A DNA stretch of 20,074 nucleotides. It comes from a virus. The position numbers and the translations under genes were made by a program. Below, piece by piece: positions 1 through 17,765 of this stretch; positions within the stretch are counted from its first letter, which is position 1, and each line of letters opens with the position of its first letter. The stretch spans positions 1-20,074 of the IMG/VR virus record IMGVR_UViG_3300022072_000189; one strand, written 5' to 3'. The notes under the pieces were generated by a model. That model was given only the letters and a program-made list of their open reading frames with translations, had not been told where the DNA came from and made no database searches.

Positions 1-2109
1 TTTTAAAGCTATTTCATTACTAGATCTAGTTTCTGTAAATTTACGTATAGATTGTAAAGCATTTTCATATTTTGTAGTTAAAGTTCCGTTTTTATTTCTT
101 ATAACAGGTTGTTTATCTACTCTTACTTTTTCAACTATTCTATTTATAACTTGTTTAGCATTAGTTAAAGTACGTTGAAAACCAGCTTTTGATTGAATAT
201 AACCTTCTTTATTTATGTTACCAGCTTTAAAATCTTCATTTAATTCTTTAATACTTTTTTCAGAACTCTGTATTGTTTCTTCAGCAGTTGCAGCTCTTTT
301 TAATTGTTCGGGTGTAAGCCTACTTCCTAAGTCGTTTCCTTCTTTTACTAAAGCTCTTAAATTAGCTTTTTCAAATCTTATTGCTTTTCTTATACCTTCT
401 TTAACTTTAGGATTTGTTTCTAAAGCTTCATTTTGCTTTAAAACACCTATGGTAAAAATAGAATTAGCTGCTGTATTTCTAAGATGTTCAGGTGTAACTT
501 GATCTCTCATAGCCTTGTAACCTGTTTTTATACCTTTACCAGCAGCGCCAAATAACAATGTACCAGCATATGTTTGTAAAGCTGTTTCAACACCTTGTTC
601 TTTTACACCTTCCCAAACGTACTCAGCTAATTCTTCATCTTTCAATCCTTTACCTAAACCTGTATTTAAAAGTTCAATGGGAAGTTGAGCCAACTCTGTT
701 CCCGTTTCAGTTAGAGCACCCCATTGAGCAACTACAAATCCTTTAGCTCCATAAGAACCAGAATTTATTACTTTTGTTATACCTTTTATTCCTACTTTTT
801 CTAAAACAACACTAGGCAAAGTTAAAGCAGCTGGTACAGCAAATTCAAGTTTACCCTCTTTTGTAGCTTTATCAAAAGCTTCTTCTTTAGATAGGCTAGG
901 ATAAAGTCTTTGTGCTTTTTCTTCATTATAACTAGTCCAAAGCTGTGGACCTATTTGAGCAGTAATCATAGCTTGGCCAACCCTAGCAGCTGTAGTAGGA
1001 TTTTTTGTTACGAAAGCCGTTGCTGCAGTTGCTGCTATGGTGGGTAATACACTAGTTGAAACTGTTTCAAAGGCAGAAGCTAGAGCCGGAAGTAATTGCG
1101 TAAAACTTCTATTTTTAATAGCTTCTTCAATGCCAGGCCCAGTATAATTTCTTACTTTGTCTATGTTTTCTAGTGCGCGTATGTATTCGGCTCCTCCTTT
1201 TCTAGAATCACCTCCTACTTCTTTGTTACTTAAATTATATACTTTTTTTATATCTTCATACTGAGGTCCATTTTTTAATAATTCATTTTGTTCTTCAGTA
1301 TATGTTTGAGAAGTTAATTTTCCTTTTCTATCTTTATAAAACTCAGCATCTTCATAAGCTTTGTTTAATTCTTGCCATCTATCTTCGTTTTTTTCTCTTT
1401 TAATTTTTTTATTTGTTTCAGGATCTATAAAAGAATAATCATTTCTTATTGCTGATAAAGCTTTAGAACCTATTTTTTTTAAAGGATCAAATCTTGATTC
1501 ACCACGCTGCTCTAAAACTTCTCCTGAATCTAAAACAGTAGCTATCACATCTGCCCATTCAGGTCCTACTAATTCATAAGCTGATCTTTTGAACGTTTCA
1601 CTCAGAGTTAGTTTTGAACGCTCCCAAGAATTGGCGAAATTATCAATAACCCCTAACGTTCCTTCAAAAGCTTTAATTCGTTGTCCTGTTCTAGGGTCTA
1701 CATTAACGCCAGCGGCTTGTTCAGCATTAGGAAGTAAATCTCTAATTTCTTTTAATTCTTTTCCATCTTTCCAAGCTTTATAAGCCTCCATTCTGCTTTC
1801 TGGAATTGGAGCAGGAGAGGGAGCCCCGGCATAACTAGGAGAATATCCTTTAGGAGATTTATCGTATATTTTAAACGATTCTATTACATCTTCGAATTCT
1901 TCATCATTTACCTTAAGCTTATCTAATGAAACGCCAAATTCATTTACATTAGGTGGTGCCTTTTGAGTCTCAATATTATTGGTACTAGAAGCAAGCATCT
2001 CAGACCTTTTAGCGTCAACTAAAGCTTGTATCTCTTGATCAGACACGCCCTGAGCTTTCATGGATGAAACCATTTCTCTAAGTTCTTGTTTTTGTTCTTC
2101 TGTAAGCAT
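1..2109 (-). CDS. Large virion cargo/ejection-type protein, 3' end missing
   Basis: An uninterrupted reading frame of 703 codons starts with ATG at 2109 and is still open at base 1, so the C-terminus lies outside the window. I checked every codon by hand and found no stop. The N-terminus is a short charged helix (MLTEEQKQELREMVSSMKAQ), followed by a Pro/Ala-rich linker near residues 90-105 and a mostly helical body. Residues 344-370 are hydrophobic and Ala/Thr-rich, and residues 424-443 are also apolar; both could meet a membrane. Residues 464-525 carry a Gly/Glu/Gln pattern (TETGTELAQ, EGVKEQGVETALQ) of a kind seen in large internal virion proteins of podoviruses. It is the third of three consecutive putative cargo genes after the tail genes, the place taken by gp16 in T7. 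No lysozyme or transglycosylase motif is visible in this part. Role inferred from position and composition. Confidence 0.65.
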   Translation of the reverse strand, partial: MLTEEQKQELREMVSSMKAQGVSDQEIQALVDAKRSEMLASSTNNIETQKAPPNVNEFGVSLDKLKVNDEEFEDVIESFKIYDKSPKGYSPSYAGAPSPAPIPESRMEAYKAWKDGKELKEIRDLLPNAEQAAGVNVDPRTGQRIKAFEGTLGVIDNFANSWERSKLTLSETFKRSAYELVGPEWADVIATVLDSGEVLEQRGESRFDPLKKIGSKALSAIRNDYSFIDPETNKKIKREKNEDRWQELNKAYEDAEFYKDRKGKLTSQTYTEEQNELLKNGPQYEDIKKVYNLSNKEVGGDSRKGGAEYIRALENIDKVRNYTGPGIEEAIKNRSFTQLLPALASAFETVSTSVLPTIAATAATAFVTKNPTTAARVGQAMITAQIGPQLWTSYNEEKAQRLYPSLSKEEAFDKATKEGKLEFAVPAALTLPSVVLEKVGIKGITKVINSGSYGAKGFVVAQWGALTETGTELAQLPIELLNTGLGKGLKDEELAEYVWEGVKEQGVETALQTYAGTLLFGAAGKGIKTGYKAMRDQVTPEHLRNTAANSIFTIGVLKQNEALETNPKVKEGIRKAIRFEKANLRALVKEGNDLGSRLTPEQLKRAATAEETIQSSEKSIKELNEDFKAGNINKEGYIQSKAGFQRTLTNAKQVINRIVEKVRVDKQPVIRNKNGTLTTKYENALQSIRKFTETRSSNEIALK

Positions 2110-2125
2110 AAATGTTATTTAAAAT

Positions 2126-3844
2126 TTATTCTATAGTTATACCTTCAAATATTTCTGGACGACTTGCCTTAAATTGTTTTCTAGAATATCCTGGTCTAGA
2201 TTCAAAATCAGGATCTAAACTCATTGTTATTTGCCTAATTTTTTCTTGTTCTTCTTCAAACTTTAGCCTTTCTGCTTGTTGCCTTTTAAGTGCTTTGTTA
2301 TAATCACGAAAACTTTTAGCATAAATTGGAGCTAACTTCATAGCATCTTCTTTAGATTCTTTTGTGTCTTTAGCATTTGAAGCTCTTCTGCCTTGTTCAT
2401 TTTCAAACCTTGCAAGTAAAAAATCTTTAGCTCCAGCCTCTGTAGATAAATTATAAGTGGTTGTTAAAGCCGGTTCACCTTCGTATTTTGCTATTTGATC
2501 AAAACTAACTATATAATCTCCGTTTTCATTAAATCCTTCTTGTAAATTTGTAGCTGTATTGTCAAATCCAGTTCCTTTAGCTACATTGAAATCTTGAGCA
2601 GTTGCACCAAGAAGATTATCACTTGATATTATATTATTTTGATCAATAGTCATTCCTTGAGTACCTTCTTTAATTATTGAAGCGTAAGTTTTATCAACTA
2701 ATGTAAGTCCTGATTTAGGAGGTTGCGGAGTTACTTTCATAGATTTATTGTAAACAGAAGTTAAAACAGCCATTTCCTGATCAATCATTTCATCTAAAAC
2801 TTTAAGCCTAGCATCGGCTCTAGTCATAGGCTCACTTTTTGCTTGTAAGTTAGTATTACCAAAAGGAGAGTCATATTCTTCACCTTGACTATTTACAATT
2901 TTTAAATTGTCTATATCTATATCACTCGCTATCATATCAACCTTTTCAACAGTTCCTGTTAATGCTTTAACTCTTGCTTCTATAACATCTCTAGGTATGT
3001 TTAAAGTATCCATACCGTACATAAACAACGGATCGCCTCCTTCATTATCACTAGCCATTTTATCTATTCTAGTTTCAATAGCTTTTCTTTGTGCTTTTCC
3101 AGGAGGTTGAGGTATTTTTAAGTCACCTGCTTTATTTTTACCAGTTTTTTGATAACCAGCTATATCAGCCTCAAGATCAGTCATGTATCCATCAGTAGAA
3201 TCAGTTAAAGATGCTGCTTTGTCAACAACCTTAGGCATGTTTAATGAAAATTCTCTAAGTTTTTTATTTATTTGTTCGCCTTGAGAAGTTACTCCTTTTA
3301 AAATTAACTCATCACCTTCAAAAACAATACCCCCATCAAATTTTCCGTTTAAAAGTTCACTATAAACTCTTTGAAACTTTGGTTCCATAGAATTAGATAT
3401 TTCCCCTGTTTGAGATCCAGTAGAAAAAGCTCTCATTTGTGTATCTAAAAATTTTTTACCATCTCGAAGCAAAGGAACTTGATTTAACATGGTTCTCATT
3501 AATTTAGCTTGATCAGCAGAGTCCATGTCTTTATTATTTTTTATACTGTTATATGTAGATATTAAATCTTGATTTGTTTTATCAAAAACAGCATTTAATC
3601 CAGCAAAACTATCTTGTTGATTTCCGTCATTAAACGTTTGATAAGTTAGCGCATCTGATTGCTCTATTGCGGCCTCTTGTGCTTCAGCTGCAATTTTTTC
3701 TTGTTCTAATTGTTTTTGTTGCGCTCTTATGTTAGAAACATTATTAGCATAATTTTGACGTGTTGCTAAATTTGATTGTGCAGCTGCCTTTTGACCGGCT
3801 TGAGTTCCTTTAACTCCAGCCATATAATCCCATGAAATTGCCAT
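2126..3844 (-). CDS. Putative internal virion / cargo protein, 572 aa
   Basis: I do not recognise a named family. The protein is hydrophilic, with no signal peptide or membrane segment. Residues about 5-62 are rich in Ala, Gln and Glu and look like a coiled coil (ANNVSNIRAQQKQLEQEK). Residues about 510-540 are a second strongly charged helix (KALKRQQAERLKFEEEQEK). The middle is mixed alpha/beta with many Asp and Asn residues. The gene sits between a 436-residue membrane-segment protein and a much larger protein, 14 and 16 bases from its neighbours, which suggests co-transcription. By order and size it resembles the middle member of an ejection-protein trio (T7 gp14-gp15-gp16) or a crAss-like cargo protein. 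That role is inference. The ATG at 3844 has an A/T-only leader and no Shine-Dalgarno sequence. Confidence 0.65.
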   Translation of the reverse strand: MAISWDYMAGVKGTQAGQKAAAQSNLATRQNYANNVSNIRAQQKQLEQEKIAAEAQEAAIEQSDALTYQTFNDGNQQDSFAGLNAVFDKTNQDLISTYNSIKNNKDMDSADQAKLMRTMLNQVPLLRDGKKFLDTQMRAFSTGSQTGEISNSMEPKFQRVYSELLNGKFDGGIVFEGDELILKGVTSQGEQINKKLREFSLNMPKVVDKAASLTDSTDGYMTDLEADIAGYQKTGKNKAGDLKIPQPPGKAQRKAIETRIDKMASDNEGGDPLFMYGMDTLNIPRDVIEARVKALTGTVEKVDMIASDIDIDNLKIVNSQGEEYDSPFGNTNLQAKSEPMTRADARLKVLDEMIDQEMAVLTSVYNKSMKVTPQPPKSGLTLVDKTYASIIKEGTQGMTIDQNNIISSDNLLGATAQDFNVAKGTGFDNTATNLQEGFNENGDYIVSFDQIAKYEGEPALTTTYNLSTEAGAKDFLLARFENEQGRRASNAKDTKESKEDAMKLAPIYAKSFRDYNKALKRQQAERLKFEEEQEKIRQITMSLDPDFESRPGYSRKQFKASRPEIFEGITIE

Positions 3845-3858
3845 ATTATATTTTTATA

Positions 3859-5169
3859 TTATCCTTGTCCATATTTTGCAGTTGCAACATTGCCTACTGC
3901 ATCAGCTACTCCCCCTGCTGCTCCTAAAATTTGAGCTTTTTGTTGATTTAAATCTGCATTAGCACCAGCTGATTGTCCTCCAGCTACAGATGCTAAATCT
4001 GATAATTGTCTATATTTCATTTGTTGAACAGTTTGATCACCGCCAGCAACCAATTGATCTGCTTTAAATTGTGAATCAGCAATATACTTATTTGCATTAG
4101 TTTGATTAGCAGCATTAAATTGATTCATACTGTTTTCAGCACCAAAAGCAGCTAAACCAAACTGATTTTGTGAAGCTATATTAGCCATGCTAAATTGATT
4201 TTCTTGACCTGCGCTAAATTGACCAGCTGCATTATCTGCATTAAATTGAGCTTGAGCAAATTGATTTTGCGCTTGCGCTTTAAATCTACTTGCTTGATTT
4301 TTTGCGTCTGCTGTAAATCTATTAGCCTGATTTCTTGCGTCAGCGCCAAATTGAGATGCTTGATTAGCGGCTTGAGCACCAAACTGAGCAGCTTGATTTA
4401 CGGCGCCTACGTTAAACTGTGATTGACCTAAGTCAAACTGTGAAGCTAAATTACCTTGAGCTAATTGTGCTCTTTGTAATTCTCCTTCACCACGAGCTCT
4501 TAACATTTCGTTTTGTTTAACTTGTTGATCAATACTAGAAGCAACTCCCTGTTTGGATTTTGCAGCTGCAGCGGCTAAAGCGGTAGCACCACCAGCACCA
4601 GTACCAGCTTGAGCAGCTAAATCTTGTGAGGCAGCTAAAGCTTGATCTGCTTCTTGAGCTTGCATTTCAGCGGCTGCTGTAGAAACCTGTAGGTTGTTCA
4701 TGGTATTTGTTAAACCGGTATTAGCACCTCTTTGTAATTGTCCAATGTTTGTACCTTGAGCTGTATAACCTTCGCTGGTATATCCTTCACCCGTATAACC
4801 TCCCGCAGTATAGCCTTTTGCTTTACCTATTTCTCCAGGTTTATAACCTTTAGCGTCTCCTAATTGATTTGCGGCGCCTAATTCTGCTATTTCAGCTTTT
4901 TCAATATCATAAGAAGCTCCAGAAATATCTTTATAAGCATTTGTAAATTCCATTGCTTCTACATCAGCCATTCTTTTATTTAAAGCATCTTCCTTAGCTT
5001 TTTTTTCTTTTTTCTTTTTACCTATACCTAAAGCAGATATACCCATTTTAACTAAAGCAACACCTCCTGATATAGCTGCGGCTGTAACTAAAACAGCACT
5101 ACCTTTTAATATTTCAGGGTCAGAACCAAGATGTTCTATTAAACTTAGATTTTCTATCAAACTAATCAT
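3859..5169 (-). CDS. Putative ejection protein: N-terminal membrane segment and 11-residue repeats
   Basis: A 436-residue protein whose first 50 residues include an apolar helix (about 23-50) ending in a lysine cluster (KKKKEKKAKE), consistent with a transmembrane or pore-forming segment. Residues 119-138 are four copies of a five-residue GYTxx unit. Residues 160-240 are Ala/Gln-rich helix. Residues 258-356 form nine consecutive 11-residue repeats, with Asn at 258, 269, 280, 291, 302, 313, 324, 335 and 346. Eleven residues make three helical turns, so this should be one long amphipathic helix or right-handed coiled coil. The start overlaps the end of the cupin-like gene by 8 bases, implying translational coupling. 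The combination of membrane helix, long Ala/Gln helix and position after the tail genes recalls T7 gp14-type ejection proteins. The function is inference; the repeats are seen directly. Confidence 0.7.
   Translation of the reverse strand: MISLIENLSLIEHLGSDPEILKGSAVLVTAAAISGGVALVKMGISALGIGKKKKEKKAKEDALNKRMADVEAMEFTNAYKDISGASYDIEKAEIAELGAANQLGDAKGYKPGEIGKAKGYTAGGYTGEGYTSEGYTAQGTNIGQLQRGANTGLTNTMNNLQVSTAAAEMQAQEADQALAASQDLAAQAGTGAGGATALAAAAAKSKQGVASSIDQQVKQNEMLRARGEGELQRAQLAQGNLASQFDLGQSQFNVGAVNQAAQFGAQAANQASQFGADARNQANRFTADAKNQASRFKAQAQNQFAQAQFNADNAAGQFSAGQENQFSMANIASQNQFGLAAFGAENSMNQFNAANQTNANKYIADSQFKADQLVAGGDQTVQQMKYRQLSDLASVAGGQSAGANADLNQQKAQILGAAGGVADAVGNVATAKYGQG
4102..4398 (-). repeat. 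Nine tandem 33-bp units encoding hendecad repeats
   Basis: In the 436-residue protein, Asn recurs at exact 11-residue steps from residue 258 to 346. Typical units are NQAAQFGAQAA, NQASQFGADAR, NQANRFTADAK and NQASRFKAQAQ. Phe occurs at unit position 6 in six units and at position 3 in the other three. At the DNA level the 33-bp units have diverged, so they are best seen in the protein. The spurious frames on both strands over 4176-4422 are a by-product of this periodicity. Confidence 0.85.
4756..4815 (-). repeat. Four GYTxx pentapeptide repeats (15-bp units)
   Basis: Residues 119-138 of the 436-residue protein read GYTAG, GYTGE, GYTSE, GYTAQ. A degenerate GYK unit precedes them at residue 108. 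The segment is probably a flexible Gly/Tyr linker between the membrane-proximal part and the helical repeat part of the protein. Confidence 0.8.
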
Positions 5170-5907: not shown

Positions 5908-8900
5908 TTATGCGTTTTGAATTATTGTTACAGATCCATTTGGTAATGCTGGTGATATTCTTGCGTTTGTATTAATAATTGTAATAGTACCACTTCTTTG
6001 AACACCCGTGTTGTTATCTGAAACACTAACAGTAAAATTTGTTTCTGGATTAAAATTAACAGGAGAAGCATTAGATCCATTGATTAATATCCAATTATCT
6101 GATGTTTCTAATCTTGTGCTTACGTTGCTTAATGAAGAAACACTCTGTGGTGATGATCCTGTGGCTGCAAATTGAGGTAATCCTACTGAGTTTACAACAG
6201 CTGTTTCCGGTCCTCCGCTAACTGTTGTTATAGCTATTATACTAGCTGTAGTTGGATTTGTTAACTTGACGCTATAAGCTGCATTAAAATTTGTTCCCGC
6301 GTCTATAACAGAAGTAGTTGTAGACGCTATTGATGAACCTCCAGACTGTTGTGTTAAAGCAAATTGAGCACTATCTGAAACCATAGTATCTGTTGCAGGT
6401 ATATTTGTATAAGTTATAGTTGCAGTGATATTTACTGTATCAAAAGGTGAAATTTTATATGTACCAACATATGGAGCATTAAATGTAATATTACTAGCAA
6501 GAGTAGGAGATATCCATGTTAAATCTGTTTTAGCTGTTGCAGTTCCAGTTACATCAACTGTTCCTGAAGCCGGTAAAGCTGGCACGGTTAAATTATAAGT
6601 ATATACTGCATTGTCTTTATTATTAGCTATCGCAGGCAGTGGAGCTGTTGCTCTTGTAACAACCGGCGGTAAAACAGGATTAAATGAAGATATTCCAGAT
6701 GTATCTAAAGTTACATTACTTGGATCTATATAATATCCATCTTCTGCTAATAAAGTAAATTGAGCAGTTCCTGTTCCAGCATTATTAAATACTTGAGATG
6801 CAGGTGTAAGATCTGAGAATGTTACAGCATCATCTGTATTTATTGTTAATAAAGCAGGTAAGTTAGCTAATACAGCACCTACGCCACCAACGTTTATTGT
6901 TTGAATGGAGTCTGCGCTTCCAACAGTGTAAGAAACTCTAAATACTATATTACCTTCAGAGGTTAAACTAGTTGGATTTATAACACTTAAACTTGTGTTA
7001 CCTGAAAGAGTTATATCTGTAGGTAAAATAAAATTATAAGCAGAACTTATAGGTCTTGCTGTTATTATCCAAGTTATAACATCGTTTTGTTTACCAATTA
7101 ATGTTGATTCACCTGTAACACTACCATTTACAGCTGTACCTATTATCTGCAACGATGTAGATATTATTGTTGCAGGCGTTGGTAATGTACCAATACTAGA
7201 AACATCTGTTTCAATAAAATCTAATGTCCAACCAGTCGATCCTTCATAACCTATAGTATTAAATTGTTTTATAGTAGAAGGAGATTCATTAAATATAGGC
7301 TCAACATATGATGGTTGAGTGCCTAAGCCATAAAAGTTATTTCTAAAACCAACCGTTGGATCGTTATGTTTCCATAGGTTACCTGTAAAAAATGTGTAAT
7401 AAGTATTATTTAAGCTTAAACCTGATTCTTGATTAAAAGATCTAAAGCTACTCCAGCCTTGAGAGTTTTCGTCAAATGCTAATGTTAAATATCCATCTGC
7501 AGCTGTGCCTACATTTGTATCTTCGTTACCATCAAGGCCTTGACCAACTATTGTTAACATAAACAAACTAGAGTACTCATCATAACTACCAACAATACTT
7601 GTTGAAGCTTTTAATGCATCTCTAAAAAAGTCAGCCATACCTATGCTAGATATTTCTTGTATACCTTGAGGTGTTAATTTTAATACAGTACCATTGTTTT
7701 TATCTGTAAAGTATTTATTAAAGCCAAACTCAGCATATGATAATGGATCTTGAGATATTCCAAATCTACCTGCATAAGGTGCAACTGTACCTAAAAATTG
7801 TGTATTACTAGTTACAGGTATTTGACCACCTTCAGCTGAATATATAAAATCTTTATCAATAGGTGATCTAGATATTTTATCTTCTTGAAATATTAAAAGT
7901 TGAGTATCGTCTGCAGCTAGTTTTTGTATAGCTCCATCTTGTGGATCTACTGATATTGTTAAACCGCCTTCAGACTCATTAAATTGATTTATATAGTTAA
8001 CACCTGTTCTAGAGTTAAAAAGTCCACTAGAGTGTATTAGAGTGTTAAACCTTAGCTCTTCTGCAAAGTTTTCTTGAACAACATAAGCTCTAACACCTAC
8101 ATCAAAAAAAGTTTCATTAAAAGCAGCTCTTAGTCTATTTAATTCTATATGCGCTCCTGATCCAGTTGGATTAAAGTCTAATAAATAAGAATTAAAAAAA
8201 TCTATGTTTATTGCTACACCTGTTATAGATGATACTAAACCACCCGTAGATGTTTCATAAAATATATCTAAATCAGACTCTACTGGTTGCGTTTCAAAAA
8301 CACATATACCAGACGTTACACTTGTACCAGAATTATTTACTGTAATTGTAGACGCTGTGCCTGTTGGATTAGCTATAGCTTGTATTGACTGTAATGCCCC
8401 GTATGTTGTAGAAAATATATTTTGACCTCCTACGTACTTAGGATAAACAGATACATCACATGGAGATATTGTAGCTGAAGTACTTGGTGGTATAGCAGCT
8501 GTTTGATCTCTTGGTATTTTATTTTGACTATCACCTAATCTTTCAACAGTATTAGCTGATGACACACCTGATATCCAATTATAATATTCTTGTTCACGTT
8601 GTTTAACAACAACTCTATATGAGTAGGCCCAAGAAGGTATTTCGTTTGTAGGATCTGCAAAAGTAATTCTTAAAGCATTAAATGCAGTTGTTGAATCAGC
8701 TGAACCCGTGTTTGGATCTATAAAAACAGTATCACCACCTGAGTTTGATAATATAACAGGAGATTGTCTACCAAATTTATCGGCTAAAACAATACCTATT
8801 TGATATGTTCTTCTTGATTTTAAAGACAAAGGATTTTTACCTGGCCCCCAGCTTATTCTTGATGAATCTTCACCAGTTCTACTTACGCTAAAGTTTATAT

Positions 8901-9945
8901 TAGGTATGTTATAATTTTGTAAAAAATTACCATAAACTAATCTAGCACCTACTAATTCTTGAGATTGAGCTATTCTAGGAACAGCATCATATACTCTTGT
9001 TAATTGATCACTTGGTAAAGTTCTAAATGGATCTTGCGACGCATAGAAAAAGTTTATAGATGTTTCACCTGCAACAGGCTTATCTTCAACAACATACAAT
9101 GCACTAGATCCTGTTTCTTTATATATCAATTCAACTTGAGTAATACCGTATCCGGCTGGAGTAGGTATTTGTAATTGAACAGATTTTATAGCATTTACAA
9201 ATGTTTCTATTTCTCCAAAGTCATTAATACTTGTAGATATTGTATCAGGATTACCTAGTCTTGAAAATATAGTTGTACTAAAAGGTGCTAATGTGCTATA
9301 CTCACCATCGTCAAATTTCCATCTATATGAAAATCTAACCATTTTATCTTCTAAAAAGTTAGATGTTATTGGTTGGCCTTGTTCATCATTTGCACCTACA
9401 GCTAAAACAGTTGGTGATTCATATGGTGCAAACTTAGCTACTGAAGCTAAGTTATCAAAAGCGCCAGCTGTATAATATGTAGGATCATTTACTGCTCTTA
9501 CAACATTTATTTTTCTTGGTGGATTACGATTATCTGTCCAAAATAAAAGATCATCAACTAAGTTAATACCTGATATTTTAAAATCTTTATGAAAATTTAA
9601 TGATAAACCACTAACTAAAGTTCTTAATTGCTTGGATGATTGATCGTAAGAAAAAATACCGTGCTCTCCGCCATTACTTCCATCATAAGAATCATTTGAA
9701 GTTACATAAAAGTATATTCTATCATCACTATTGCTTCTATAAGAACCTATACATGATCCACCAGTTATACCTGAAGATGCAACTTGAATATTACCTAGTA
9801 AATTTTCAATAGCACCCATGTCGGCACTTTCTGATTTACCTACATTTATATTTAATGCTTCTCTATATTCACCGGCTGGCACTAACCTATCGTCTAGGTC
9901 TCGATTCATTCGGCCACCATTGAACATTCTTTTAATTTCTGGCAT
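5908..9945 (-). CDS. Tail stabilisation / muzzle protein with C-terminal BACON-like domain
   Basis: A 1345-residue tail protein. The first 35 residues (FNGGRMNRDLDDRLVPAGEY, then REALNI) match the start of crAss-like 'stab' proteins, related to P22 gp10, which close the portal channel and build the tail needle base or muzzle. Residues 1 to about 920 are beta-rich with many Gly/Asp turns, as expected for a large propeller-like body; NESPSTIKQFNTIGYEG near 885-903 fits that family. Residues about 920-1260 are Thr/Ser/Val-rich and look like three roughly 100-residue beta-sandwich units. Residues about 1262-1345 resemble a BACON domain. P22 gp10 is only about 470 residues, so this is a much-extended version. 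It sits directly after the two ring-protein genes (9-base gap), the expected neck-to-tail order. The family assignment is from memory of motifs; the domain boundaries are approximate. Confidence 0.8.
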   Translation of the reverse strand: MPEIKRMFNGGRMNRDLDDRLVPAGEYREALNINVGKSESADMGAIENLLGNIQVASSGITGGSCIGSYRSNSDDRIYFYVTSNDSYDGSNGGEHGIFSYDQSSKQLRTLVSGLSLNFHKDFKISGINLVDDLLFWTDNRNPPRKINVVRAVNDPTYYTAGAFDNLASVAKFAPYESPTVLAVGANDEQGQPITSNFLEDKMVRFSYRWKFDDGEYSTLAPFSTTIFSRLGNPDTISTSINDFGEIETFVNAIKSVQLQIPTPAGYGITQVELIYKETGSSALYVVEDKPVAGETSINFFYASQDPFRTLPSDQLTRVYDAVPRIAQSQELVGARLVYGNFLQNYNIPNINFSVSRTGEDSSRISWGPGKNPLSLKSRRTYQIGIVLADKFGRQSPVILSNSGGDTVFIDPNTGSADSTTAFNALRITFADPTNEIPSWAYSYRVVVKQREQEYYNWISGVSSANTVERLGDSQNKIPRDQTAAIPPSTSATISPCDVSVYPKYVGGQNIFSTTYGALQSIQAIANPTGTASTITVNNSGTSVTSGICVFETQPVESDLDIFYETSTGGLVSSITGVAINIDFFNSYLLDFNPTGSGAHIELNRLRAAFNETFFDVGVRAYVVQENFAEELRFNTLIHSSGLFNSRTGVNYINQFNESEGGLTISVDPQDGAIQKLAADDTQLLIFQEDKISRSPIDKDFIYSAEGGQIPVTSNTQFLGTVAPYAGRFGISQDPLSYAEFGFNKYFTDKNNGTVLKLTPQGIQEISSIGMADFFRDALKASTSIVGSYDEYSSLFMLTIVGQGLDGNEDTNVGTAADGYLTLAFDENSQGWSSFRSFNQESGLSLNNTYYTFFTGNLWKHNDPTVGFRNNFYGLGTQPSYVEPIFNESPSTIKQFNTIGYEGSTGWTLDFIETDVSSIGTLPTPATIISTSLQIIGTAVNGSVTGESTLIGKQNDVITWIITARPISSAYNFILPTDITLSGNTSLSVINPTSLTSEGNIVFRVSYTVGSADSIQTINVGGVGAVLANLPALLTINTDDAVTFSDLTPASQVFNNAGTGTAQFTLLAEDGYYIDPSNVTLDTSGISSFNPVLPPVVTRATAPLPAIANNKDNAVYTYNLTVPALPASGTVDVTGTATAKTDLTWISPTLASNITFNAPYVGTYKISPFDTVNITATITYTNIPATDTMVSDSAQFALTQQSGGSSIASTTTSVIDAGTNFNAAYSVKLTNPTTASIIAITTVSGGPETAVVNSVGLPQFAATGSSPQSVSSLSNVSTRLETSDNWILINGSNASPVNFNPETNFTVSVSDNNTGVQRSGTITIINTNARISPALPNGSVTIIQNA
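5911..6162 (-). other. BACON-like domain at the C-terminus of the muzzle protein
   Basis: Residues about 1262-1345 show the BACON pattern: a strand, then a Trp (Trp1285 in LETSDNWILINGS), then NFTVSVSDNNTGVQRSGTIT and a final strand ending VTIIQNA. BACON domains occur mainly in Bacteroidota secreted proteins and have been reported in crAss-like phage tail proteins, where mucin or carbohydrate binding has been suggested. The match is by eye, not by profile search. Confidence 0.65.
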
Positions 9946-15350: not shown

Positions 15351-17765
15351 TTATCTTGGTTCAAACCTAGATAAATCAATACCGCCTAGTACATCATTAC
15401 CTTTTGATTCAAATGATTTAGCTGGCTTACCACTATCCGGTGGTCCAGATAAACTTGCTGTTGAGGTTTTCATTGCCGCAACGTCTTTTTGAGTTTCACT
15501 TTGTTTTTCTACTAATTCTTTTTGAGCTTGTAATTCTAATTCTTTTAATTGAACATTTAACTCATATTCAAACTGCATTAATTCTCTTTTTGTTCTAGCT
15601 TCTACTTCAAGTTTTTTAATTTCAAACTCAATATCAGCTTGTCTGTATTGTATTTTAGATTCTGTTTTAACTTGCTCAGCTTGAGCTTTAGCATTTTCAA
15701 CAACAACTTGTGCTTGGCCTTGTGCTTCAGCTTGTGCTGCGCTAGCTGCCTGAGCTTGCTGTTGATCTACTTGTTGTTTTTTAATTCTTCTATATTTAAG
15801 AAGTTGATTTGCTAATTGTATGTTTTTTATTTCTCTAACATCAATTGCATCCTCTAAAAATATACTACCTTGACTTAGTGCTGCTTGTATGTTAGCTTCT
15901 AACATAGCTTTTTCTGCTTCGTCTGGTTCAAGTTCTAAGAATATACCAAAATCATGCAAATGCATATTCTCCATTTCTTCTAAAGATCCTACTGAAAATG
16001 GACCTATAGCATTTATAAACGCTTCTTTTGTTGGATGATATTCCAAAACATCTTTAAATCTTAAAGCTATGCATTCAGCAATTCTCGTTGTTATAGACAT
16101 GCTGCTGTCAAGTATATGTCTTGTTGCCACATTACTATTTGCTGCAGCTAATTTTTGTACACCTACTAATGCTTTTGGATCTGGATCAGAACCATCTCTA
16201 GCTTCATTTAAACCAGTTATATCACGCATCATTTGTATATACTGATTATAAGCACCAACAAGTATTTGAACTTGACCACCTCCACCGCCTGGTAATTCTG
16301 TAATAGGTACTTTACCTATGTTTTGTTCTCCATCTACAGTAAGCGATCTACCTATAATAGACCCTGTTTGAAAGTACATGTTTAATGCTTCTTGCGGATT
16401 ATAGTTAGTACCATTACCTAAATCAATTTCAGCTAAACCATCTGCATCTAAATAAACACCTGAAGGTGTCATTTTTTGTATAGCTTGTTGCATTTTTAAA
16501 TGCGTTAATTGAATTAAATCAGCATAAGGCATCATTTTAGAAACTAAAGAATTTATAGCACCTCTATATATTCTAGGCGCGCTAACAACATAATTCATTA
16601 ATACTAAATTAGTATTAGAATTAGGCCTTATCATATTAGAAGCTTTTTCCCATTTTAATAAAGTATTAGAACCTAATATTAAAACACCTTCATAAACTAC
16701 TTCTACAGCTTCAGCTACTTTTTCAAATCTAGATCTTTGATCTTTTGGTGGATCAAAAGTATCATCTTTTTTAATAGCTTTGTTTGCGCCTGTAGATGTT
16801 TCTTTTATTTTATATACGTTATTTTCCCAAGTTTTCCAATTGAAATATAATACTGAAACAATATTGTCATCGTTATTGTTTTGAGCATTAGTGTTGTCGT
16901 TGTAAGAAGTCCAGTCATAGCTTTGTCTTGCAAGTTCTCTAAACTCTTCATTAGAAGTATCAGGAAACTCTTTTTTTAATTCATTTAATTTTACTCTTTT
17001 AACTTCACCAAAATAATAACAATCAGTAAAATCAGGATCTTCAGTGTAAGACCATATTAAATTAGCTGGATCAACATAATTTAATTTTATACCATCAGTA
17101 TTATTAAACGTACATTTACCAGCACCAATACCTATAGTGGCTAAATCATAATCAATACGTTTTTTAATATTTTTATATTTATTAATTAAAAAAACATTAT
17201 TAATAGCTTGTTCTTCTGCTATTTCTATACCTTGCTTATAATTAAGCTGCATGTATAATTGAAACTCTTCACTGTTTAAAGGTAATTCATCTTCTGGAAC
17301 AGTTCTAGGCGCTTGACCTAATTCTGCTTCCATAACTTTTAAAAGTTCAGCAGCTGCTAAATCTCTTTCAATACCTTTTACAAATTTAGTTTTTCTATCT
17401 GTAGCTAAAGGATCTTGACCAACTGCTTTTATAGAAAATAATCTATCTTGCATACCATTAACTACTATATCTACAAATTTAGGTATAATAGGTACTGGCT
17501 TCCAGTCTAAATTTAAATATGACAAATCTCCATTTACAGAAAATTCATCTTTATATTTACCTATAGATTGTTCACCTCTAGCATATAGTCTAAGCATATT
17601 GTATTGATTAGAAGACTGATAGAATCTTCCAACATTACCATCTCTGTTAAACCAATCTTGCTCGATAGCTTTAGCGACTTGTAAACCATAATCATCTGAA
17701 CGCTTTTCACTGTCGGAAACTGCCTGACTAGGAAATGAGCTGTATTGCCCTGTTGTTTTTGCCAT
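15351..17765 (-). CDS. Portal protein, 804 aa
   Basis: A large portal of the size seen in crAss-like phages. The N-terminal region contains YLNLDWKPVPIIPKFVDIVV (residues 83-102), a pattern I associate with portal proteins of this group, followed by the wing and stem regions. The conserved region near residues 527-556 (GVQKLAAANSNVATRHILDS) is typical of podovirus portals. Residues about 655-765 form a long coiled coil, first Gln/Ala-rich (QQVDQQQAQAASAAQAEAQG) and then Glu/Lys/Leu-rich, which could form a C-terminal barrel like that of the P22 portal. The last 40 residues are Ser/Gly/Pro-rich and probably flexible. The start is 2 bases past the terminase stop. Bases 17700-17760, encoding the first 20 or so residues, are unusually GC-rich (about 45% by hand count). 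Confidence 0.85.
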   Translation of the reverse strand: MAKTTGQYSSFPSQAVSDSEKRSDDYGLQVAKAIEQDWFNRDGNVGRFYQSSNQYNMLRLYARGEQSIGKYKDEFSVNGDLSYLNLDWKPVPIIPKFVDIVVNGMQDRLFSIKAVGQDPLATDRKTKFVKGIERDLAAAELLKVMEAELGQAPRTVPEDELPLNSEEFQLYMQLNYKQGIEIAEEQAINNVFLINKYKNIKKRIDYDLATIGIGAGKCTFNNTDGIKLNYVDPANLIWSYTEDPDFTDCYYFGEVKRVKLNELKKEFPDTSNEEFRELARQSYDWTSYNDNTNAQNNNDDNIVSVLYFNWKTWENNVYKIKETSTGANKAIKKDDTFDPPKDQRSRFEKVAEAVEVVYEGVLILGSNTLLKWEKASNMIRPNSNTNLVLMNYVVSAPRIYRGAINSLVSKMMPYADLIQLTHLKMQQAIQKMTPSGVYLDADGLAEIDLGNGTNYNPQEALNMYFQTGSIIGRSLTVDGEQNIGKVPITELPGGGGGQVQILVGAYNQYIQMMRDITGLNEARDGSDPDPKALVGVQKLAAANSNVATRHILDSSMSITTRIAECIALRFKDVLEYHPTKEAFINAIGPFSVGSLEEMENMHLHDFGIFLELEPDEAEKAMLEANIQAALSQGSIFLEDAIDVREIKNIQLANQLLKYRRIKKQQVDQQQAQAASAAQAEAQGQAQVVVENAKAQAEQVKTESKIQYRQADIEFEIKKLEVEARTKRELMQFEYELNVQLKELELQAQKELVEKQSETQKDVAAMKTSTASLSGPPDSGKPAKSFESKGNDVLGGIDLSRFEPR

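Follow-up and report, generated by a model that had tools for sequence, protein, structure and literature searches.

A 436-aa protein encoded by the IMG/VR virus record IMGVR_UViG_3300022072_000189 (20,074 bases, analysed over its whole length and called the window here) contains nine 11-residue units in a single register, which array-bearing relatives keep while the array changes in length by whole units. The gene lies behind the muzzle gene, in a slot where isolated phages carry a shorter homologue. Considering this slot together with the homologues annotated from MS/MS and the gene rows of crAss001 and T7, we therefore read the product, with slightly better than even confidence, as the ejection or cargo protein that comes first (in the "gp14-slot") in a crAss-like podovirus, and whose array would form a self-associating helical bundle or tube extending the DNA path. 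As no sequence link to T7 gp14, crAss001 gp45 or phiX174 H was found, this is a statement of slot and role and not of membership in those families. The features discussed are the following, in window coordinates:

5908..9945, minus strand: muzzle protein, 1345 aa, upstream anchor of the module (PF25729 crAss_MUZ_C, 27.3 bits, barely above the cut-off of 27)
3859..5169, minus strand: 436-aa gene with hydrophobic N-terminus, conserved core, hendecad array and Ala/Gly-rich C-terminus (open reading frame; 18 IMG/VR loci, 79 by profile; slot in relatives)
5038..5094, minus strand: residues 26-44, hydrophobic and a candidate membrane segment by Kyte-Doolittle hydropathy, with a Lys-rich stretch after it at residues 51-59
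4411..4752, minus strand: conserved core, the family signature, residues 140-253 (TNIGQLQRG, NLQVSTAA, QFDLGQSQFN), from invariant columns and hhalign to the phi40:1 gp099 family
4102..4398, minus strand: nine in-register 11-residue units, residues 258-356, from lag statistics, shuffles, and register and unit-wise length change in relatives
2126..3844, minus strand: 572-aa protein, next gene, in the crAss001 C2 / T7 gp15 slot; putative role from gene order
1..2109, minus strand: start of a very long protein, 703 aa inside the window, in the crAss001 gp47 / T7 gp16 slot; putative role from gene order

Genomic setting of the 436-aa gene

On the minus strand the window encodes terminase and portal, then a protein of 418 aa, the major capsid protein, a protein of 261 aa and two virion structural proteins, probably ring proteins by their position, followed by the 1345-aa muzzle, two small genes, the 436-aa and 572-aa genes and the start of the very long protein, which reaches at least 1416 aa in relative L002. 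Terminase, portal, capsid and tail proteins of the crAss-like (Crassvirales-type) group are present in order, as judged by PHROG matches and by comparison of the order with isolates. With tblastn, capsid and portal retrieved 85 and 87 phage records, all below 60% identity and mostly from Flavobacterium and Cellulophaga, with Maribacter and Tenacibaculum phages also among the matches. On account of the muzzle match and these tblastn results the virus is, by sequence, a crAss-like phage; its host probably belongs to the aquatic Bacteroidota, where both the affiliation and the word aquatic are taken from the nearest isolates. A BACON-like stretch is found at the C-terminal end of the muzzle (5917-6108; PF13004, 23 bits, below the cut-off of 25), and the C-terminal stretch of the portal (15396-15755) gives a certain 11-residue signal as well (z 3.3 over the best 120 residues, the stretch being picked post hoc).

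Among the 18 loci of the first IMG/VR scan, the muzzle and a 78-aa gene precede the gene of the 436-aa type in 14; of the other four, L017 has the muzzle only, L014 starts within the gene, and two (L018 and L019) come from a different phage group. Homologues of the 572-aa neighbour and of the very long protein were detected in three and six of the 18 loci, respectively, some of which end earlier. For the putative ejection protein of the initial annotation, an ejection or cargo slot is supported by the position behind the muzzle and by the matching slot in relatives and isolates. The gene at 5162-5659 matches "short tail fiber" PHROGs (1.8e-18), and its slot, which holds a different protein in L006, L016 and several isolates (with an acetyltransferase-like annotation in MW202828), appears to have been swapped between lineages. 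The upstream gene of several relatives, the acetyltransferase-like one in MW202828, had no match in a Pfam search and aligned to T7 gp13 with an hhalign E of 0.00097 (probability 22), a likeness that is only suggestive.

The 11-residue array and its register in relatives

Asparagine occupies residues 258, 269, 280, 291, 302, 313, 324, 335 and 346, i.e., position 1 of all nine units, and phenylalanine stands at unit position 6 in six of them, the remaining three having it at position 3. Over residues 151-400, residue identity was raised at lags 11 (z 5.8), 22 (z 4.8) and 33 (z 4.8), values reached by none of 500 shuffles each, and nine equal residues at one spacing (4 to 30) were seen in none of 500 shuffles of the whole protein and in 1 of 500 when residues 201-400 alone were shuffled. 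The spacing of Asn and the positions of Phe given in the initial annotation are confirmed. Its wording, "nine exact 11-residue repeats", holds for the spacing of Asn but not for the units, which share on average 37% pairwise identity in protein and 50% in DNA, with Asn as the sole invariant residue. The units are degenerate, and the spacing rather than the letters is conserved. The register starts near residue 245 (FDLGQ-QFN) and fades past residue 356.

Of 146 residues shared between two units, 91 also share the codon, which is no more than the 89.2 expected from codon usage; the units are therefore old. A recent tandem duplication or an assembly artefact was rejected as the source of the array for this reason and because the array is found on many contigs. 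Tandem Repeats Finder detected in the array only a two-copy 33-base repeat (4277-4341). The 99 residues comprise 27 Ala, 19 Gln, 15 Asn and 11 Phe, with 10 charged residues and 2 Val, Ile or Thr in total. A second, shorter repeat with steps of the GYTxxG type is located at about residues 119-139 of the same protein (4753-4815), where Tandem Repeats Finder reports 4763-4801 with a period of 15 bases. Searches of the window protein against Pfam, PHROGs and NCBIfam gave no match, and tblastn with this protein and relative L042 against 50,697 phage records (E 0.01) retrieved nothing, i.e., no isolate with the array version.

A profile scan raised the number of loci to 79, which together with L017 give 75 distinct relatives (L018 and L019, from the other phage group, are not among them). 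Reading these sequences by eye, we found an array in 60, the same 60 rows that group in the tree described below, none in 13, and two truncated proteins. Complete array-bearing relatives have 345-517 aa, 44-143 of them in the array, and array-less relatives that also lack the S74-like domain described below have 202-248 aa. The distance between an FDLGQ-type and an FKAD-type anchor was 90 (one relative), 101 (ten), 112 (nine) or 123 residues (six), and hence 2 modulo 11 in all 26 relatives with both anchors, while 49 of the 75 gave no result (19 without the first anchor, 30 without the second). Internal gaps in pairwise alignments of 53 sequences (pairs of at least 55% identity) were multiples of 11 in 443 of 762 cases and not in 319, a count in which the pairs are not independent and repeats favour gaps of such lengths.

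Choosing units by their letters gave 4 to 13 units per array, with the unit types in one order in most rows as judged by eye. This choice is biased. The Asn counts and the helix profile used seven fixed units without a letter filter, and in 56 relatives 352 of the 392 units so taken begin with Asn. The unit analyses leave out the 19 of 75 relatives without the first anchor, among them L044, L047, L061 and L081, which show the repeat by eye. A register that is not conserved in relatives had been named in the initial annotation as an argument against its reading; we found it kept in array-bearing relatives, and array-less relatives do exist. Insertions and deletions of whole units can come from recombination between repeats without selection. 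In a tree of the core, all 60 rows with an array fall into one group (support 93/88, below the star of the tool); 12 rows without it adjoin this group, and the isolates and L101 lie outside; L090 was too short to be included, and the truncated L084 sits on a very long branch. Given few columns and an arbitrary root, a single gain of the array is likely, not proven.

Virion homologues and known ejection proteins

Most invariant columns of the family fall in the core, about residues 140-253, in alignments of 15 as well as of 59 sequences. A homologous core with a V/I-S-T motif, common to the window family, is found in the proteins of phrog_13764 (Cellulophaga phi40:1 gp099, Flavobacterium elemo gp20, Maribacter Panino gene 72 and MW202828), to which phi18:3 gp120 was joined by tblastn. 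Against the profile of these isolates the array family gave an hhalign E of 4.3e-6 (probability 87) and the array-less relatives 3e-15 (probability 98.5). Like the window protein, the phrog_13764 proteins are encoded after a protein of muzzle size and before a protein of 450-645 aa and a very long one; unlike it, they have 200-227 aa (302 in MW202828) and no hendecad array, and their N-terminal hydropathy is below the cut-off of 1.6 in phi40:1 (1.44) and elemo (1.12), compared to 1.89 in the window. The records of phi40:1 gp099 and phi18:3 gp120 annotate them as virion or structural proteins from MS/MS, and, with the core related by hhalign, this supports a family link to virion proteins; the virion location as such applies, per record annotation, to the homologues. 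Two further proteins of phi40:1 annotated from MS/MS, gp100 and gp101, occupy the slots of the 572-aa and the very long protein, the likeness being one of position.

A subset of the family ends in an S74-like C-terminal domain, present in 14 of the 75 distinct relatives (11 with and three without the array anchor) according to a motif that itself demands Ser with Lys at +5. No match to S74 or Peptidase_S74 (PF13884) was found in the window protein. At E 0.01, PF13884 was matched by six of 59 members, and in a check of ten proteins two of the motif-bearing L005, L010, L011 and L015 matched Pfam at 19.1 and 18.9 bits (cut-off 22). The domain can also be aligned (E 2.3e-11) with the end, annotated as pfam13884, of Pseudoalteromonas H6/1 gp17, by annotation a putative ejection protein and the first in a row of three annotated ejection proteins. 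In addition to its S74 end, H6/1 gp17 (L119:2637-3713) has a weak 11/22-residue signal (z 3.1 and 4.1). According to the accessible part of the literature on S74-type domains, the Ser-Lys dyad S578/K583 described for MYRF and endosialidase has the same spacing, and these domains act as trimers via a triple beta-helix (PMC3742443). The S74 end would thus support self-association of some members, and equally the fibre reading weighed below. Among the 59 array members, 11 match PHROG 6121 ("virion structural protein"), the matches seen in detail running into the S74 end. PHROG 4287 ("DNA ejection protein") matches five of 59 and was set aside, because the match of L050 covers both the array and the S74 end and may be due to the S74 domain.

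The gene row of crAss001 offers a positional counterpart, since C1 (gp45) is the first large protein behind the muzzle there, as is the 436-aa protein in the window, which has two small genes in between. In the portions available of the crAss001 structural work, C1 is found in capsid and tail and expected together with C2 in the channel (PMC10172136; PMC10136315); it is described as virion cargo with a predicted transmembrane helix and a resolved helical tail segment, and the cargo proteins are proposed to unfold partly on exit (PMC10172136). C1 has 842 aa, compared to 436, and a weak 11-residue signal (z 3.7); with gp45 as single-sequence target, no similarity to the window family was detected.

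In the T7 gene row (gp12, gp13, gp14, gp15, gp16) it is the place of gp14 that resembles that of the window protein. T7 gp14 is ejected first and forms an outer-membrane pore, and gp14-like proteins have 181-240 aa, as stated in the accessible sections of PMC8954989, a range exceeded by the 436 aa of the window protein. In size T7 gp14 corresponds to the array-less relatives without S74, and it has no lag-11 signal (z 0.7). Membership in the gp14 family (PF24072) was considered and rejected (hhalign E 0.24; array-less relatives 0.12; isolates 0.0084 with probability 5; no Pfam match).

A hendecad-containing DNA conduit is described for phiX174 H, which forms a decameric tube of 170 A with three hendecads and eleven heptads and with Asn, Gln or Arg as 18 of 23 inward residues, according to the accessible text of PMC7354561. 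Hendecads and amide-rich residues are shared with the window protein, for which a long helix is predicted and a part in DNA passage through the envelope proposed; unlike it, H comes from an ssDNA microvirus and has three hendecads and then heptads, where the window family has 4-13 hendecads. Membership in the H family was likewise rejected (blastp E 0.53; hhalign E 0.088 over 9 columns). A search of the literature on phage hendecads and 11-residue repeats found by title no work on a crAss-like or podovirus ejection protein, subscription journals lying mostly outside its scope. Within the titles searched, the statement in the initial annotation that no podovirus ejection protein defined by such hendecads had been described was not contradicted, but H of a microvirus is a precedent.

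Predicted structure and competing readings

AlphaFold2, run on 59 rows (the window protein and 58 of the 60 array-bearing relatives, without L074 and L023, the latter being identical to the window), predicted main helices at residues 18-72, 153-187, 196-328 and 340-433 and short ones at 2-15 and 89-100, with a mean pLDDT of 62.7 and a pTM of 0.32. In the array, pLDDT was 71-74 in the blocks of residues 261-310 and 43-50 in those of 321-350, with a break in the model at 329-339 (pLDDT below 50). A helix is thus predicted across most of the array, as had been proposed, at modest confidence, but its description as straight and 150 A long is doubtful, as the long helix that was modelled is interrupted within the array. 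Structure models of low-complexity repeats lean to helix, and the helix prediction is weak for that reason. Foldseek searches of the model against PDB and BFVD returned nothing at E 0.001 or better, and a sequence search of PDB with family profiles gave no match. A second model, of the array-less, S74-bearing L092, had a mean pLDDT of 63.9 (70-91 over the last 70 residues) and likewise no Foldseek hit at E 0.001 or better; VIA-align returned long helices with Z up to 10.6, below the ~13 common for helical models, and barely tested the S74 part.

Of the periodic power in family hydrophobicity, a one-face helical component accounts for 11% (permutation p 0.60), and the strongest component, with 46%, is the pattern of a two-faced helix or a beta strand (p 0.10). 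As a test of helix versus strand this measure failed, since the one-face component takes up 19% in the three hendecads of phiX174 H, whose helical structure is known. On an 11/3 helix the family fractions of Asn, Gln or Arg are 0.92, 0.58 and 0.81 at 98, 131 and 196 degrees and 0.33 at position 9 (164 degrees), and hydrophobic residues reach 0.94 at 65 degrees and 0.74, 0.75 and 0.92 at 229-295 degrees. This pattern would be one of two hydrophobic seams with polar residues between them, suited to a barrel helix, and not of one amphipathic face; it is not significant by permutation (p 0.39 for the arc of 98-196 degrees, which might correspond to the amide/guanidinium lumen face of phiX174 H), and positions 7 (327 degrees) and 11, outside the arc, are often Asn, Gln or Arg too (0.53 and 0.39). 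In the window protein itself a one-faced moment is weakly present over the nine units (p 0.011), originating from units 1-4 (0.342 versus a shuffle mean of 0.136, p 0.003) and not from units 5-9 (p 0.50). The term amphipathic used in the initial annotation is not supported as it stands, the family pattern not being one-faced.

The N-terminal membrane segment proposed earlier is present as a hydrophobic segment and candidate only, with a 19-residue Kyte-Doolittle maximum of 1.89 starting at residue 26. The cut-off of 1.6 is exceeded in 15 of 56 array members, including the window protein, and not in the other 41, and membrane insertion by this segment is therefore not general, while in the window protein it may occur.

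If the protein is the first ejection or cargo protein, it would be stored in the virion and leave through the tail ahead of the DNA. The conserved core would be ancestral, and the hendecad array, added behind it in one lineage, would be an extended and largely alpha-helical rod, several copies of which associate into a bundle or tube. On an 11/3 helix, Asn1, Gln/Arg5, residue 9 and Gln2 would form the polar arc between 98 and 196 degrees, and the hydrophobic seams (position 8 on one side, 6, 10 and 3 on the other) could provide the helix-helix contacts. Once the muzzle opens, the protein would engage the envelope, in the window perhaps by its N-terminal hydrophobic segment, and each unit of the array would lengthen the DNA path by ~16 A (11 residues at 1.5 A). 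In its most specific form, which we put forward as a possibility short of probable, this is a modular tube of adjustable length, i.e., a parallel multi-copy barrel ringed inside by Asn, Gln and Arg that extends the ejection core in steps of 16 A tuned by each lineage to its tail or host envelope, and thus an independently evolved counterpart of the phiX174 H tube in dsDNA phages.

The array might instead be a low-complexity, largely unfolded spacer of Asn, Gln, Ala and Phe-Gly that aids threading through the tail, its period being a relic of old repeat growth. The low pLDDT over residues 321-350, the Ala-, Gln-, Asn- and Phe-rich composition and the partial unfolding proposed for crAss001 cargo (PMC10172136) would all suit such a spacer, and repeat recombination also yields whole-unit indels. 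However, a spacer has no need of an Asn in each 11-residue step, the register persists in 56 relatives despite the divergence of the units, whose order is mostly constant (by eye, with letter-chosen units), and codons in the window give no sign of recent duplication, so that we consider this reading unlikely. Quite improbable, in our view, is a trimeric fibre or spike-like virion part that is not ejected, in which the repeats would be a triple-stranded stalk (coiled coil or beta) and a C-terminal S74 chaperone would fold several relatives. This would account for the S74-like ends with their Ser/Lys spacing as in S578/K583, for the alignment to H6/1 gp17 and for the trimers made by S74-type domains (PMC3742443), and the strongest hydrophobic component would suit beta too; yet the window protein has no S74 match, three array-less members carry the domain, which is therefore independent of the repeats, the annotation of H6/1 gp17 is that of a putative ejection protein, and the gene, in a cargo slot, encodes an array that is predicted to be helical and poor in Val, Ile and Thr.

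Amphipathic 11-mer helices on membrane surfaces are known from synuclein-type repeats, and a single helix of this kind could coat or perturb the host membrane. The one-faced moment of units 1-4, and that over all nine units, would fit, but units 5-9 have none, the one-face component of the family is small and the array has 10 charged residues in 99, which makes this reading very improbable.

In the accessible parts of PMC10172136 and PMC10136315, the account of the passage through the envelope in crAss-like phages rests on partial density of one phage. The preferred reading as a first ejection or cargo protein would be informative here, as a repeat in the cargo slot that changes in length by whole units leads one to expect a rod or tube whose length can be counted in units, and array-bearing and array-less natural versions allow comparison. 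If true, the idea of a hendecad DNA conduit would extend from microviruses to tailed phages.

Repeats of 11 residues of the NQFN type also occur in gp25 of Puniceispirillum phage HMO-2011 and gp59 of pelagiphage HTVC103P (lag-11 z 6.2 and 4.0, best 120 residues), which share the repeat type with the window protein and differ from it in their length of about 700 aa and in belonging to another phage group; both are annotated as hypothetical. In the HMO-2011-type relative L018, the match to the window protein is limited to residues 311-388. In HMO-2011-type podoviruses we observed NQFN-hendecad proteins of ~700 aa at L018:4213-6507, L117:6915-9035 and L118:5833-7920, and among the virion proteins of aquatic podoviruses such arrays may be more widespread.
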